This document shows, in pieces, positions 43,980 to 49,430 of a stretch of 64,000 nt of DNA. Source of the stretch: an uncultured Spirochaetaceae bacterium. GTDB lineage: Bacteria > Spirochaetota > Spirochaetia > Sphaerochaetales > Sphaerochaetaceae. Within the stretch, counting starts at the first letter, position 1, and every line of letters begins with the position of its first letter. The DNA is taken from positions 62,001-126,000 of the forward strand of contig CALXLA010000020.1 of the NCBI GenBank assembly GCA_944389075.1, read 5' to 3'. The notes under the pieces were generated by a model that was not told the DNA's origin, did not search any database, and saw only the letters and a list, made by a program, of their open reading frames with translations. The position numbers were made by a program, and so were the translations under genes.

Positions 43980-45326
43980 ATGAAAAAGAAAATAGAACTT
44001 CCGGAAATCGAGCCGGTACGTCTCAGGCCTGTCCATGGCATAAGGCCAGGTGTATACATCCTCGCATTTCTTGCAGCTGCTGCGATTCTTGCTGTATTCA
44101 GCATATTCTTCCTTCCTGGCATATTGTCCGATGGAAGCTATGTCTCGTTCTCGCTGAATACGGAATCAGCCGCAATCTACATGGATGGGAAGTACCTCGG
44201 GTCCGGCAAAGGCTCAGTATACTATATACCTGCCGGAGAGCATGAATTCTCGTTCAGTGTCTATGGCGCGGACGGCGGTTCTGTGAAAAAGAATATCGGA
44301 AAGCACATCTTCGCGACTCTCTTTGTCCACAGAGTTGAGGAAATTCCCTATGACATCCCATATACCGAAGATATCGAGAGAAGTGTAATCGGGCATTTCG
44401 CATCATCCATAGCATCGTGGTCAAGGGTCCTTGATTTCTCGGATCGCTATCACTATCCTCCCCTTTTCCAGGATCTTGCATCGGATGCGATCGCATTCGG
44501 CTTCGCGGATATCTCGGACGCAATGCTTTTCGGAGCGCTTCATGTGACATCCGAGACAATATACAGTGACTTCGCATCATCGGTTTCGATGCTTTCCTCA
44601 TCAGACACGGAATACAGAACAGATGAATTCAATGATATAGAGAACATTCTTGAGGATGTCTATGTAAACGGGACGACATCAAGGACATACGCATCTGGAT
44701 CATCGGATAATGAATATGTACCTGAATCTCAGGGCAGCTTCATCACATTCCCTGCTATCAATATGACTGTGGGAACAACAGATGAGATAACATTCCCTGA
44801 GGTGAAGGACTATTGCAAGGATGTCGATGTGCCTGCATTCTCAATATCATCAGGCATGGTCAGCGAATATGACTACGCGCTCTTTGTCGAAGATAATCCC
44901 TACTGGGCAAAGAGCAATACCAGCAAGCTGATTGAAGATGGAATGGCAGATGACAACTATCTTGCAGGAATAAGGCTATCCACCAATGTCAATTCGACAG
45001 CTCCGATAAAGAACATAAGCTGGTATGCGGCAGATGCATATGTGAAATGGCTTTCCGGGAAGGAAGGCATCGAGTATGATCTTCCGGATGAATATCAGTG
45101 GACGGCTGCATCCGGCGGAAGCGCATCGATGATATGGGAATTCACATCATCCCATTTCTTGCCATATGGAAGGCTTGTAAGCGATGAAACCATTTCAAGG
45201 CTTACATCGCTATTCCCTTATGACGATGCCATAGTCAAAGGCAGGGACAGGAACACCACAGGTGCAATGGATCTCAGCCAGTGTTCGGAATATGCGGGAT
45301 TCAGGGTTGTGAGAAATGCAGACTAA
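43980..45326 (+). CDS. membrane-anchored PEGA plus formylglycine-enzyme-like (SUMF1) protein
   Basis: The 448-aa product has an N-terminal cytoplasmic segment, one membrane helix (about residues 25-46), a PEGA domain (AIYMDGKYLGSG) and, after a long linker, an FGE-sulfatase/SUMF1 domain (about 290-448: NISWYAADAYVKWLSG, LPDEYQWTAASGG, EYAGFRVVRNAD). Paired catalytic cysteines are not evident, so it is probably a binding or structural member rather than a formylglycine generator. The ATG at 43980 has GAGGA upstream. It overlaps smpB by 11 bases. Confidence 0.78.
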   Translation: MKKKIELPEIEPVRLRPVHGIRPGVYILAFLAAAAILAVFSIFFLPGILSDGSYVSFSLNTESAAIYMDGKYLGSGKGSVYYIPAGEHEFSFSVYGADGGSVKKNIGKHIFATLFVHRVEEIPYDIPYTEDIERSVIGHFASSIASWSRVLDFSDRYHYPPLFQDLASDAIAFGFADISDAMLFGALHVTSETIYSDFASSVSMLSSSDTEYRTDEFNDIENILEDVYVNGTTSRTYASGSSDNEYVPESQGSFITFPAINMTVGTTDEITFPEVKDYCKDVDVPAFSISSGMVSEYDYALFVEDNPYWAKSNTSKLIEDGMADDNYLAGIRLSTNVNSTAPIKNISWYAADAYVKWLSGKEGIEYDLPDEYQWTAASGGSASMIWEFTSSHFLPYGRLVSDETISRLTSLFPYDDAIVKGRDRNTTGAMDLSQCSEYAGFRVVRNAD

Positions 45327-45771
45327 GCTCATTCAGAAAAACAAGAAAGCATACTTCAACTATGAAATCGTTGAGGAACTGGAAGTCGGGATGGCTCTTC
45401 AGGGAACTGAAGTCAAGTCAATCAGGGACAGCAGATGTTCATTCTCAGACAGCTATATAGAGCCCAAGAACGGACAGCTTGTGCTTAAAGGCTTCCTGAT
45501 ACAGCCATATTCCCATGGCAACATCTTCAACCATGAGACAGCAAGGAACAGGATCCTTCTTGCTCACAAGCAGGAAATAAAGAAGCTCACAAGACGTGTC
45601 AACGAGAAAGGCTTTACGCTCGTTCCTCTGGAGATATATCTCAAAGGCAACCATGTGAAGATGAAGATAGCCCTAGCCCGCGGAAAGAACGTGCGCGATA
45701 AAAAAGATGCAATCAGGGAGAGGGACCTCAATAAGGATGCGAGAAGGCAGCTCAGGGATATGAACAGCTAA
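45316..45771 (+). CDS. smpB: tmRNA-binding protein SmpB
   Basis: Carries tmRNA into stalled ribosomes for trans-translation. NKKAYFNYEIVEELEVGMALQ-like opening (NYEIVEELEVGMALQGTEVK), SFSDSYIEPKNGQL, and the C-terminal basic tail KDAIRERDLNKDARRQL that enters the decoding centre are complete; 151 aa. Its partner RNA gene lies only 1.2 kb away on the other strand. Confidence 0.97.
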   Translation: MQTKLIQKNKKAYFNYEIVEELEVGMALQGTEVKSIRDSRCSFSDSYIEPKNGQLVLKGFLIQPYSHGNIFNHETARNRILLAHKQEIKKLTRRVNEKGFTLVPLEIYLKGNHVKMKIALARGKNVRDKKDAIRERDLNKDARRQLRDMNS

Positions 45772-45797: not shown

Positions 45798-46202
45798 TCA
45801 GCCAAGAGAAGCGCCGCATCCAGGACAGAACCTGTCATGCTCATCCGCATCCTTGCCGCAGCTTGCACACCTCTTCACGAAGGAATGCCCACAGCCCGGA
45901 CAGCACCTGTCCTTTCTTCCTGCATAGGCACCGCATTCAGGGCATTTCCTGCGGATCAGCGATCGCACGACAAGCAATGCCGGTATTGCCAGGACATTGC
46001 AGAATATCGCTATGACTGCCCACAAAACCGGAATCATCCTGGCCTCTGAAGCAGACTGATAGACCCAAAGCACTGTACATGCATAGATAAGCAGCGCAAC
46101 AACTCCATCCACGATTCCTATTGCTTCGGTAGCTATACCGAAAGCCGTAGGTTCCCATCCCCAGGTGTCTGCCATCCGCATCTGGTTCAGTTCAATTGAC
46201 AT
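45798..46202 (-). CDS. membrane protein with C-terminal double zinc ribbon (5' end apparently frameshifted)
   Basis: The readable frame gives two membrane helices (about 24-47 and 55-80) and then two zinc ribbons: CPEC-x8-CCPGC and CASC-x11-CPGC. Function is unknown; such ribbon-tailed small membrane proteins are common. The ATG at 46202 has no good SD. The same frame stays open upstream to 46304 and encodes another hydrophobic helix, but without a start codon; a good SD-ATG at 46303 is one base out of frame. See the next entry. It converges with smpB, 26 bases away. Confidence 0.65.
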   Translation of the reverse strand: MSIELNQMRMADTWGWEPTAFGIATEAIGIVDGVVALLIYACTVLWVYQSASEARMIPVLWAVIAIFCNVLAIPALLVVRSLIRRKCPECGAYAGRKDRCCPGCGHSFVKRCASCGKDADEHDRFCPGCGASLG

Positions 46203-46303
46203 GAATCCAGCGCCAGCTGCCGTAAGGTAGACGAAGACAGCAAAAAGGACAACAAGGCACTTTCCATAGCTGAAACCAAGGATTTTTCCTTTGCATTGCT
46301 CAT
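46203..46303 (-). pseudogene. displaced 5' part of the zinc-ribbon membrane protein gene
   Basis: The ATG at 46303 is preceded by AGGAGA at 7-nt spacing and reads MSNAKEK, then a run of five A (46287-46283), after which its frame soon stops. Adding one base at that run (or a -1 slip) joins it to KILGFSYGK and the hydrophobic CLVVLFAVFVYLTAAGAGF, continuing in frame into the downstream protein. The restored product would be about 168 aa. Confidence 0.55.
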
Positions 46304-46387
46304 TTTATCTTCTCCTTTCCCAGACATCATTGAAGGAAAAGATAAAAAGAACAGAACATCAGGATAAACAGATAGTGAACTGAGGAC

Positions 46388-46972
46388 TTATTCGTGGCTC
46401 ATGCTGCAGCGTGATGCGAGACGCTCCTGCGCGCCCTCGATCATCAGCGTCATTCTTTCAGCAACCAGCCCAGTATCCTCCGCAAAGCCGGAACCGACCC
46501 AGGCACGGATTACAGAAACAGCACCACCAGAGATGAAATTGAACAGGAAGCCAGCATCCTGTACGGAGATTCCAGCTGCCCTGCACCATGTATCAGTAGC
46601 ACTTGCATAAATCTCATTCAGGATATCAGTCATAAGATCCGAGCTCGTACCGGAAAAGAGGAGCACGCACATATCCCTGTTGTTCTTCGCGAAGTTGAGG
46701 ACAACATCCATCAGCGTCTTTATCGATGTGATATACTCACCCTTGATTCTTATTGAATCTATGAGATTCGCAGTGAAGGCGGTCTCAGTCTCCTTCATAA
46801 GTTCTTCCGCTGAAGTGTAGTGGGCATAGAAGGTATTCCTGTTCACACCTGCCTTCTGGCATATTTCACAGACAGAAATCTGATTAAGCGACTTAACAGA
46901 AAGAAGATCCAGAAGAGCCCTTCTGAATTTTCCCTTTGTCTTCAGTATCCTGATATCTGTCTTCTCGCTCAT
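46388..46972 (-). CDS. TetR/AcrR-family transcriptional regulator
   Basis: 194 aa with an N-terminal TetR helix-turn-helix (ISVCEICQKAGVNRNTFYAH, about 31-50) and a helical ligand-binding domain that I cannot assign. AGGAG lies before the ATG at 46972. The tmRNA 3' end is only 10 bases upstream with no terminator between, so the gene is probably read from the tmRNA promoter. The zinc-ribbon membrane gene follows 84 bases downstream and is a possible target. Confidence 0.88.
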   Translation of the reverse strand: MSEKTDIRILKTKGKFRRALLDLLSVKSLNQISVCEICQKAGVNRNTFYAHYTSAEELMKETETAFTANLIDSIRIKGEYITSIKTLMDVVLNFAKNNRDMCVLLFSGTSSDLMTDILNEIYASATDTWCRAAGISVQDAGFLFNFISGGAVSVIRAWVGSGFAEDTGLVAERMTLMIEGAQERLASRCSMSHE

Positions 46973-46982
46973 ACAGCTCCTA

Positions 46983-47351
46983 TGGAGGCGGGGAGAGTCG
47001 AACTCCCGTCCTGACAGTCCACCCGCAAACGTCTACGGATATAGTCCCATTTCAGTCTTAGCCAGCCTTCGGCAGTGGAACCAGCGTCCAGCAGGAGCAT
47101 CACCTAAGTCTCCTCCAGCTCCCGGTGAACTGAACTGAAGAAAGTCCCCTAAGTCAAAGAAGCGCAGGAGTCAGAGACTTAACTCAGACGCTTCCGCTCA
47201 TAAACCGCGATTAAGCAGCAAGAGCAAATGCTTCGTCAGAGACGAACTCGTCTTCTTTCTTTGCATTTAATTTTTTTTGCCGGTTTTACAAGTCAGCTCT
47301 TGATCCGCAGTCTACGGCATAGCAAAGCCAGTCGAAACCAGATACGCCCCC
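46983..47351 (-). ncRNA. ssrA: transfer-messenger RNA (tmRNA)
   Basis: Both tRNA-like ends are readable on the minus strand: 5' GGGGGCGTA..GGTTTCGAC and 3' GACGGGAGTTCGACTCTCCC followed by CGCCTCCA, giving the 7-bp acceptor stem (one G-U), a T-arm with GTTCGAC and an encoded CCA at 46985-46983. The length of about 369 nt is normal for a one-piece tmRNA. The tag frame and several pseudoknot-forming inverted segments lie between. A promoter sits just upstream, overlapping the sirtuin stop. Confidence 0.95.
47211..47264 (-). other. tmRNA proteolysis-tag reading frame
   Basis: The resume codon GCA at 47264 begins AKKEDEFVSDEAFALAA, then TAA (47213-47211). The ALAA end matches the ClpXP/ClpAP degron of other bacteria; the 17-residue acidic tag is longer than the 11-residue E. 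coli form. Confidence 0.85.
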
Positions 47352-47367
47352 TATTTCTGCAAGACTA

Positions 47368-47396
47368 AAAATAGCTAAAAAAACAAAAATCATCAA
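47368..47396 (-). promoter_or_regulatory. tmRNA promoter
   Basis: TTGATG (47396-47391), 17-nt T-rich spacer, TATTTT (47373-47368), with a predicted start about 9 nt before the mature 5' end. The -35 overlaps the stop codon of the sirtuin gene. Confidence 0.55.
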
Positions 47397-48148
47397 GCAC
47401 TAATCACAGCTGAGAGCTTAGTGAAGAACTCTTCGAGATCAGTGAATCTCAGTGCGGCATAACGGTCTATGTATGTCTCTGTCCTGTTTACAATAACGAT
47501 ATCCTTCCCTGCCCTTACAGAATTATAAGGAAGAGATGCCGCAGGATTGACGACAAGCGATGAGCCGAGGATGATCGCAAGATCTGCATTGGTGAATGCA
47601 TTCTCTGCCCTCATGAGCATCGTCATGTTGAGACTTTCGCCATAGAACACGATATCGGGCTTGATGACCGATCCGCATGAAGGACAGCGAGGAACCTCCC
47701 CGTTTCTTACAGCTCTCTCCATCTGGCTGTATTCAGCCATTCTGCCACATCCGGTGCAGAAACCTCGTTTCAGCGATCCATGGAGCTCAAAGACACGTTT
47801 CGACCCTGCTCTCTGATGAAGATAATCTATGTTCTGGGTATAGATTCCCTCAGAAAGTTTTCCGATTTCCTCCATCCTGCTGAGCGTCCTGTGTATGATA
47901 TTCGGTTCGAATTCCTCCATATGATACCAGTAAGGCTCTGCCCATCTGTAGAAGACATCAGGATGCTGATTGAAGAATCCTATATCAAGGATCTCCTCAA
48001 CGGACATTGAACCGAAATCCTTCGAATAAAGGCCGGAAGACGAGCGGAAGTCAGGAATCCCTGAAAGCGTGGAGACTCCTGCACCAGTAAGCACTGCTAT
48101 TCTCGATGATTTCGAGAAAAGCTCCATGAAGCGTGTGAAATCATCCAA
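47393..48148 (-). CDS. cobB: NAD-dependent protein deacylase, Sir2 family
   Basis: Sirtuins remove acyl groups from lysines using NAD. Motifs: GAGVSTLSGIPDFRSSSGLY, TQNIDYLHQRAG, catalytic His in ELHGS, and the zinc site CTGC-x16-CPSC, then GSSLVVNPAA. A TTG at 48148 is preferred (about 251 aa): it lies inside the miaB 3' end with GGGGG upstream. Longer readings extend through miaB; the first in-frame ATG (48127) lacks an SD. Confidence 0.92.
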   Translation of the reverse strand: MDDFTRFMELFSKSSRIAVLTGAGVSTLSGIPDFRSSSGLYSKDFGSMSVEEILDIGFFNQHPDVFYRWAEPYWYHMEEFEPNIIHRTLSRMEEIGKLSEGIYTQNIDYLHQRAGSKRVFELHGSLKRGFCTGCGRMAEYSQMERAVRNGEVPRCPSCGSVIKPDIVFYGESLNMTMLMRAENAFTNADLAIILGSSLVVNPAASLPYNSVRAGKDIVIVNRTETYIDRYAALRFTDLEEFFTKLSAVISA

Positions 48149-49430
48149 TTCTCGACCCCCTGAATGTATTTCCCGAAAGCTCCTCCGCCCTGACACGGAC
48201 CATGTCGCCAGGAGCAAGAGAATCATCCGAGCTGAAAGCTATGAAGTCATTGTGCTCGCCACGTCCGAGGTACATAGACTTATCATCTCGTGTCATCTTC
48301 GTGACAATGACATCTGCTTCATATGGAAGCATGGCAGATTTGATTGTTCCTTGCCTCTTCATCTGCTCATCTATAAGGCGCTCAAGCCTCCTTATCTTCT
48401 CACCTTCTTCTATCTGTCCATCCATTGATGCTGCTCTTGTGCCTTCCCTTGGATTGAAGTAATACATGAATGCCTCAGTGCATCCCATGATTTCCATCAT
48501 GGAAAGAGTCTCTTCGTACTCAGCTTCAGTCTCTGTAGGAAAACCGACCATCACATCTGTAGAAAGAGTAAGCCCGCTGATCTCTGTCTTCATCTTCTCG
48601 ATAAGAGCTATGGTATCCTCCCTTGTCGTCTTCCTGTTCATAAGCTGAAGAATCCTTGTGGAACCTGACTGGATAGGAAGATGGATATGCTTCGCGATGC
48701 GCTTCTCGGAAGCAATCATCCTGATGAACTTATCGGAGAAATCCTTGGGATGCGGCGATTCGAATCTCACGAACTTTATCGAACTCATTCTCGGAAGGAT
48801 CAGAGACAGGAGATCGGAAAGGTCAATCTTCTTCCCTCTGTACTCACCGCGATATGAATTTACATTCTGGCCCAGGAGCGTGATGTCCTTCACGCCTTTT
48901 CCCTCAAGGAAATCTATCTCCCGGATTATGTCCTCAGCAGACCTCGATACCTCACGTCCCCTTACATATGGAACTATGCAGTATGAGCAGAAGTTGTTGC
49001 AGCCGTTCATTATAGGGACGTAGCTCGACCAGGAACCTTCCTTGTAATAGCTGTCAAGGAATCCATATGCATCGAGATGCTCAAGAGCATTTCCAGAAAG
49101 AAATGCGGGAATCTCGGCCTTCTCATTAGTACCGATCACAGCATCGACAGCAGGTGCCTCTGCCTTAAGCTCATCTTTCATGCGCTCTGCCATGCATCCA
49201 GTGACTATCAATGTGAATGGATGCTTCTTCTTCTCGGCTGCATAGAATCCGAGCCTTCCCCATATCCTGTTCTCCGCAGTCTTCCTGACAGAACATGTAT
49301 TGATGATTACCGCATCAGCCTTGTCAGGATCCTCAGTCTTCTCAAATCCCTGTCCTGTGAGTATTGTCTCTATCGCATCTGATTCAGCTGCATTGAGCTG
49401 GCATCCATATGTCTCGATGAGGAATCTCAT
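48141..49430 (-). CDS. miaB: tRNA-2-methylthio-N6-dimethylallyladenosine synthase
   Basis: Methylthiolates i6A37 of tRNAs using two 4Fe-4S clusters. The N-terminal cluster cysteines (YGCQLN, NTCSVR, TGCMAE), the radical SAM motif CNNFCSYC, and a C-terminal TRAM domain (about 365-425) are in order; 429 aa. CSVR after NT is MiaB-like rather than RimO- or MtaB-like. It overlaps the folD stop by 4 bases. Confidence 0.95.
   Translation of the reverse strand: MRFLIETYGCQLNAAESDAIETILTGQGFEKTEDPDKADAVIINTCSVRKTAENRIWGRLGFYAAEKKKHPFTLIVTGCMAERMKDELKAEAPAVDAVIGTNEKAEIPAFLSGNALEHLDAYGFLDSYYKEGSWSSYVPIMNGCNNFCSYCIVPYVRGREVSRSAEDIIREIDFLEGKGVKDITLLGQNVNSYRGEYRGKKIDLSDLLSLILPRMSSIKFVRFESPHPKDFSDKFIRMIASEKRIAKHIHLPIQSGSTRILQLMNRKTTREDTIALIEKMKTEISGLTLSTDVMVGFPTETEAEYEETLSMMEIMGCTEAFMYYFNPREGTRAASMDGQIEEGEKIRRLERLIDEQMKRQGTIKSAMLPYEADVIVTKMTRDDKSMYLGRGEHNDFIAFSSDDSLAPGDMVRVRAEELSGNTFRGSRIG

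Follow-up and report, generated by a model that had tools for sequence, protein, structure and literature searches.

In a group of uncultured gut spirochaetes, we find that the gene for tmRNA (ssrA) runs directly into the coding sequence of a TetR family regulator, and it is well supported by sequence comparison that a hairpin within the first codons of this regulator is selected beyond what the protein sequence needs. We favour, as the rather probable explanation, that the hairpin is a leaky in-frame terminator which ends most ssrA transcripts, and that readthrough together with an RNase Z cut yields the tetR mRNA. If true, a housekeeping RNA gene would end within the coding sequence of a transcription factor, and a single sequence would be both protein code and the stop signal of the neighbouring gene. 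The junction lies in the window, by which we mean the whole 64,000-nt stretch of DNA that was analysed; it comes from a 2.2-Mb draft genome, and its relatives are spirochaetes.

In the window, ssrA occupies 369 nt of the minus strand (46983..47351) and is recognized by ARAGORN, by Rfam RF00023 (covariance-model score of 138.7 bits against a gathering score of 47) and from the sequence itself, with AKKEDEFVSDEAFALAA as the tag peptide frame (ARAGORN). A gap of 10 nt, TAGGAGCTGT (46973..46982, minus), separates it from tetR (46388..46972, minus), which encodes 194 amino acids with TetR_N and TetR_C_8 domains and is identified by Pfam, alignment and profile matches. Within the gap lies the SD AGGAG (46977-46981, minus), and the presumed RNase Z cut is at the gap's upstream edge. 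The preliminary description of this DNA had already placed a tmRNA gene and a TetR gene next to each other across a 10-base gap containing AGGAG, which the sequence bears out; the minus strand of both genes was left unstated there. An island at the tmRNA 3' end was ruled out, given that the order is conserved in the genus and that tetR, not an integrase, follows, and a plasmid origin was rejected because a distant search gave no match among plasmids. On the far side of tetR, smpB (45316..45771, plus; Pfam SmpB, 175 bits) is convergent with it, and between them lies a zinc-ribbon membrane-type protein (45798..46202, minus) whose frame seems to have no start. Upstream of ssrA is a SIR2 family gene (47393..48226, minus), with miaB and folD further upstream. 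At 45798-46310 (minus), the zinc-ribbon frame offers no start codon ahead of a hydrophobic segment, and a good SD and ATG just upstream of it are in another frame; the frame may be broken near an A run, or the assembly may be at fault.

The acceptor stem of the tmRNA is formed by the seven-base arms GGGGGCG and CGCCTCC, and the final base of the gene is the discriminator A, followed by TAG. CCA is not encoded, and the tmRNA CCA of the preliminary description has to be withdrawn, as its A is this discriminator. The same holds for the tRNAs, with an encoded CCA in none of 35 distinct tRNA genes read from 30 loci of the window's own genome. RNase Z is encoded in this genome (332 bits against a cut-off of 293), as are two members of the CCA-adding/poly(A) polymerase family. 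RNase Z cuts its substrates after the discriminator. In bacteria other than E. coli it cleaves CCA-less tRNA precursors, according to PMC2777011. A CCA-less 3' end and an RNase Z gene, both found here, are features of a tRNA-punctuated dicistron cut by RNase Z. Since CCA is not encoded, we expect that RNase Z would cut past the discriminator, freeing the tmRNA for CCA addition and releasing a tetR mRNA with a leader of 10 nt in the window; across the clade of the window (9-24 nt) this leader would hold little beyond the SD.

The regulator looks like a working gene under purifying selection, because dN/dS is 0.014-0.070 in the four closest genome pairs. TetR_N scores 25.5 bits against a cut-off of 24, TetR_C_8 is also over its cut-off (Pfam), and the motif NRNTFY is invariant in 32 TetR sequences. 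The start is supported by an alignment of 31 relatives that begins at about the same place. The best profile matches are PDB 3kkc and 4mk6. With the DhaS-like regulators (PDB 4mk6, 2iu5; TIGR02366), which are among the best profile matches, the protein shares TetR_N and TetR_C_8, but it reaches only 50.3 bits against the equivalog cut-off of 129 for TIGR02366, the nearest curated model, and no dha gene is among the neighbours named at the window locus and at the loci of relatives. Hence, it was not assigned as DhaS.

The ssrA-tetR pairing is conserved across the genus. A tmRNA over cut-off is present in 45 of the 48 genomes sampled (all except G006, G026 and G040), and 39 of these 45 have tetR directly downstream of ssrA in the same orientation. 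The remaining six form one clade that lacks tetR; there, ssrA is followed by a hairpin and a T-rich tail. Outside the genus, tetR was found behind ssrA at 0 of 66 loci; at four of these the contig stops immediately behind ssrA. Conservation of the pairing in relatives had been proposed earlier as a check, and with 39/45 in the genus against 0/66 outside it the pairing exceeds chance. A further 20 loci from the class are not counted in the 66; five of these 20 have no ARAGORN tmRNA although there is an Rfam match. Start positions of tetR were corrected in three genomes (G014, G038 and G044), and the tmRNA end used for G043 is approximately 10 nt short, so that its gap is 13 nt by eye, not 23.

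Among the 39 genomes, four states of the junction can be told apart. In state (a), the tight group, 27 genomes of one clade that includes the window have a gap of 9-24 nt with nothing between the genes. In state (b), the gap of six genomes measures 42-55 nt and holds a hairpin, with a clear T run in five of them. State (c) is a gap of 41-42 nt without a strong hairpin in four genomes (L070, L071, L072 and L073), and state (d) is a 17-nt gap in two close relatives (G019 and G020). In the four genomes of state (c), the G-rich SD could pair with the tmRNA acceptor strand CACCTCC.

The gene order outside the genus suggests how the junction arose. Many contigs outside the genus are cut; at 24 of the 66 loci there, smpB precedes ssrA in the same orientation at a distance of no more than 150 nt, apparently the older arrangement. 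In the sister group the same tetR lies between smpB and ssrA in 3/3 genomes, with tetR and ssrA divergent; this orientation is repeated in eight named loci, three of which are the same contigs. Based on gene order and a tree of six neighbouring proteins, from which G049 was left out for having no aligned genes, the simplest history would be an inversion of ssrA in situ in the common ancestor of the genus, after which it ran into tetR.

As the ssrA promoter we propose a -35-like hexamer, TTGATG (47391..47396, minus), which overlaps the end of the SIR2 gene, and a -10-like hexamer, TATTTT (47368..47373, minus), at a spacing of 17 nt and 16 nt before the mature tmRNA 5' end. The site falls below a 9/12 threshold, and a similar site is found in relatives. 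Of the 45 genomes, 41 entered the promoter table (G003, G005, G031 and G043 have too little upstream sequence), and in 40 of these the best promoter-like site is 9-20 nt before ssrA, which is the best of a scan and so not independent proof. Under an 8-of-12 rule, 24 of the 27 tight genomes have a promoter-like site upstream of ssrA, whereas none of the 27 has one in the stretch made up of the final 200 nt of ssrA and the 60 nt behind it. This speaks against a promoter of tetR's own inside ssrA, with the neighbourhood merely passive, an explanation we find very doubtful even though simple promoter scans miss weak promoters and the same stretch does give a match in three of the four long-spacer genomes, in G019 and G020, and in one of the six genomes with a hairpin before tetR. 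A tetR promoter inside the 10-nt gap was dismissed for want of space. Since the gap has no room for a promoter and none was found in 27/27 tight genomes, co-transcription with ssrA or readthrough is the likely source of tetR mRNA.

The start of ssrA was also considered as a site for a TetR operator, which was rejected because the candidate motif does not seem to keep the constant spacing that an operator would require. At 15 of 45 loci, a GRACAC near the presumed transcription start has a GTGTTC opposite it at the 5' end of the tmRNA, at variable spacing; all of these loci (for example L022, L038 and L054) are in the tight clade.

The preliminary description had stated that there is no terminator. 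This is correct for the gap and not for the junction as a whole, as a candidate hairpin with a T-rich tail lies inside the tetR frame (46928-46907). In the window it reads ATTCAGAAG-GGCT-CTTCTGGAT (46907..46928, minus; codons ~15-22), with an extended stem also possible, and is followed by the tail CTTCTTTCTG (46897..46906, minus), for which T enrichment across the group is modest. A scan found four terminator-like sites against 1.8 expected. By itself the hairpin of the window is borderline and only modestly unusual: dinucleotide shuffling gives a z of -1.67, with equal or greater stability in 11 of 200 shuffles, codon permutation gives a p of 0.12 at 33 nt, and the hairpin-plus-tail score gives a p of 0.010. 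Its reality rests on the comparison with relatives, in which a GC-rich hairpin selected at this site is found over the 27 genomes of one clade and is marginal for the window's own sequence.

In the 27 tight genomes a hairpin lies at tetR codons ~12-22, in a region starting 45-57 nt past the tmRNA 3' end (59 nt for G043, with its short tmRNA end). When each gene was resampled 200 times with synonymous codons drawn by genome codon usage and compared in 33-nt windows, the tight group had a mean Z of -2.30 and a mean energy of -14.1 kcal/mol at codon 12. In the controls, the mean Z at this codon was +0.19 for state (b), +0.19 for state (c) and +1.03 for the divergent sister group; the two genomes of state (d) had a Z of -0.57 there and dipped to -2.28 at codon 32. 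Codon permutation at four window sizes gave -1.90 to -2.14 for the tight group, -0.34 to +0.52 for states (b), (c) and the sister group, and -0.70 to +0.78 for state (d), with p<0.05 reached singly in only 14-16 of the 27 tight genomes. Across 100 windows each in smpB, SIR2, miaB and lepB (27, 23, 23 and 23 genomes), no window fell below -1.01. As a group, the 13 relatives with another terminator position or a divergent ssrA do not have the signal. Thirteen extra tetR relatives were drawn from 80 named loci (five from the divergent sister group and eight others); among these, one (L197) has a Z of about -3 at codons 9-11 and the others are near 0 or at most -1.7.

The tight clade is diverse, with a median fourfold-site difference of 0.71 among its genomes, which merge into 25, 19 or 6 groups at fourfold thresholds of 0.40, 0.50 and 0.55. 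Within it, columns 7 and 21 of the tested stem face each other and both change: the first base of an Arg codon (AGG or CGN) covaries with the third base of the Ala/Ser/Thr codon opposite, giving 15 A-U pairs, 6 C-G pairs and 5 unpaired cases in 26 distinct rows, and both bases are mostly silent. One covariation control (b) partly favours the tested structure by construction. RNAalifold found no common structure in the 27-row alignment, and the pairing register of the stem varies between subclades. Synonymous-codon identity over the hairpin is 0.61, the second highest among the 8-codon windows of tetR, and for being only second highest it was set aside as independent proof.

These data bear directly on whether the hairpin is simply a by-product of conserved helix-1 residues (K-E-R-L-K) and codon habits. 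The same residues do recur, and the tests on the window's own sequence are marginal. Both null models, however, keep amino acids and codon usage, and the hairpin is kept where residues and register differ: the window's own genome and G024 have KGKF, G011 has EDRL, and G029 and G041 have KERLSA, with the residues over the hairpin differing between G000/G024, G011 and G029/G041. A by-product was thus already disfavoured, and we consider it highly improbable.

Selection on the hairpin leaves its function to be weighed, and the strongest argument for a role in termination comes from the position of the candidate stop signal, which appears to shift with the lineage. Six genomes have their best signal before tetR, 27 have it within the gene and four have it beyond the tetR stop. 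In state (b), the hairpins before tetR have a median terminator score of 5.0 (the weakest -24.6). In state (c), hairpins such as TGGGGTGGTGACACCCCA lie between tetR and smpB and score -3.6 to -32.1. In the tight genomes, no better terminator was found at the end of tetR or before smpB (median -48.7). State (d) counts against a strict rule, as no terminator was found in any zone in G019 and G020. Outside the genus, 33 of 62 loci score above 0 after ssrA.

For the tight group itself, the median terminator score is -25.8, weak next to those outside loci, the tails being short and broken. Scored together, hairpin and T tail exceed the synonymous recodings at p<0.05 in 23 of the 27 tight genomes and in 1 of 15 controls. 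The tails hold 5.96 T out of 12 against 5.03 expected (mean Z 0.96), and a T excess is also seen in the four long-spacer genomes of state (c) that have no hairpin there (mean Z 1.80), so that the T excess alone is not specific. Weak and interrupted tails would fit a hairpin that is selected for a post-transcriptional task, such as an RNase III site, a barrier to 3' exonucleases or tuning of tetR translation, and the excerpt of PMC10107115 describes the E. coli arfA stem-loop as both terminator and RNase III site. We see this as possible, although with clearly less weight than termination: the signal is missing where the terminator sits elsewhere or ssrA is divergent, the tails of the tight group do have a mild T excess, and these genomes offer no better terminator ahead of smpB. 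Rho, whose gene is present in the window's genome (626 bits), could finish untranslated readthrough RNA.

The preliminary description held that mature tmRNA has to be processed out of a joint message with tetR or that tetR is expressed only by readthrough. Its further proposal, a TetR level that follows the synthesis or processing of the rescue RNA, is a conjecture. Co-transcription or readthrough is likely, as stated above; cutting would concern only the readthrough fraction, because the candidate terminator inside tetR makes termination with leaky readthrough the expected default. An unterminated dicistron that is always cut to give both products agrees with the gap, which has no terminator, and with the four relatives with 41-42 nt spacers, in which a hairpin comes only after the tetR stop and which show that such a state exists in the genus; ssrA also leads into a Bax1-I type gene without a strong terminator in three genomes of another spirochaete family. 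For the window we think such a dicistron unlikely, given the selected terminator-like hairpin at the start of tetR in its own clade. 'No terminator in the gap' should not be equated with 'cotranscribed'.

In the leaky-terminator model that we prefer, ssrA would be transcribed from its own promoter, with no room for a terminator ahead of tetR. The hairpin at tetR codons ~12-22 and the T-rich stretch behind it would halt most transcripts ~75-95 nt past the tmRNA 3' end, and a minority would read through and carry the whole of tetR, so that TetR would be made at a low level, by readthrough from the tmRNA promoter. To open the hairpin, a ribosome would need to get to about codon 7. Translation would seldom be in time, since the ribosome site emerges just ahead of the hairpin and against the folded tmRNA, and termination would be the default. 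The hairpin may also limit antisense transcription into the convergent smpB. The stop codons of tetR and smpB overlap in 32 of 39 genomes, and in 25 of the 27 tight genomes (the exceptions are the window itself and G033), so that tetR readthrough would be antisense to smpB.

An ssrA transcript ending at the hairpin would carry a ribosome-binding site and an ATG that opens about 22-25 sense codons with no stop codon. We mention as a speculation, and a quite unlikely one, that the trailer once cut is a nonstop mini-message and a substrate for its own tmRNA, which with a terminator opened by ribosomes would make a small sensor: production of TetR would depend on RNase Z, free ribosomes and readthrough, and the rescue RNA would be tied one-to-one to a test message in need of rescue.

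The truncated ArfA product of E. coli is functional, and arfA is the nearest precedent. According to the excerpt of PMC10107115, its in-frame stem-loop is an intrinsic terminator and an RNase III site, the nonstop mRNA is under trans-translation, and zntR, a regulator gene upstream of arfA, is co-regulated. As far as that excerpt goes, both cases share a terminator-like stem-loop in frame, a ribosome-rescue context and a transcript with a start and no stop, but the product of arfA is a rescue factor and the gene lies apart from ssrA, whereas here the preceding RNA is the tmRNA itself. A functional truncated product of the arfA type is unlikely here, because a cut at about codon 25 removes most of the TetR DNA-binding domain. 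According to the excerpts of PMC7815308 and PMC10319736, premature 3' ends inside open reading frames occur in E. coli and Borrelia, some with terminator scores, and Borrelia is also a spirochaete; unlike the present case, those excerpts contain no tmRNA-regulator pair. The smpB-rnr pair is co-transcribed, according to PMC3534368. Among the titles and abstract openings listed by literature searches no ssrA-tetR junction was found, which is no proof of absence in print.

Two further known arrangements resemble parts of the junction. The E. coli tRNA-tufB unit is a tRNA-mRNA dicistron whose mRNA is released by tRNA processing; in such dicistrons, as here, a stable RNA is followed at once by a coding region and the tRNA-like 3' end is the processing site, but here the stable RNA is tmRNA and a terminator-like element lies inside the downstream frame. 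In operons of the smpB-rnr-ssrA type, ssrA likewise shares transcripts with protein genes, but it comes last there and first here. If the hairpin is a terminator, scans restricted to intergenic gaps can miss cases such as the present one. The genus is a natural experiment in which the stop signal is before, inside or after the regulator, so that the cost and use of leaky termination can be compared.

tmRNA genes leading into coding genes probably arose more than once, because in another spirochaete family ssrA lies 24-26 nt before the Bax1-I type gene in 3/3 genomes (G099, G124 and G142). The junction there (loci L232, L101 and L233, respectively) has a good SD and no strong stop signal, and the Bax1-I identity rests on a Pfam run on G124. 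At all three loci the Bax1-I gene is followed by an overlapping frame, which we take to be RsmD-like. At L145 (1475-1515) in the window's own genome, a GGAGGG site and an ATG that opens only a short frame come no more than about 16 nt behind a tRNA-Arg(CCG) gene, possibly another junction of a stable RNA with an mRNA.
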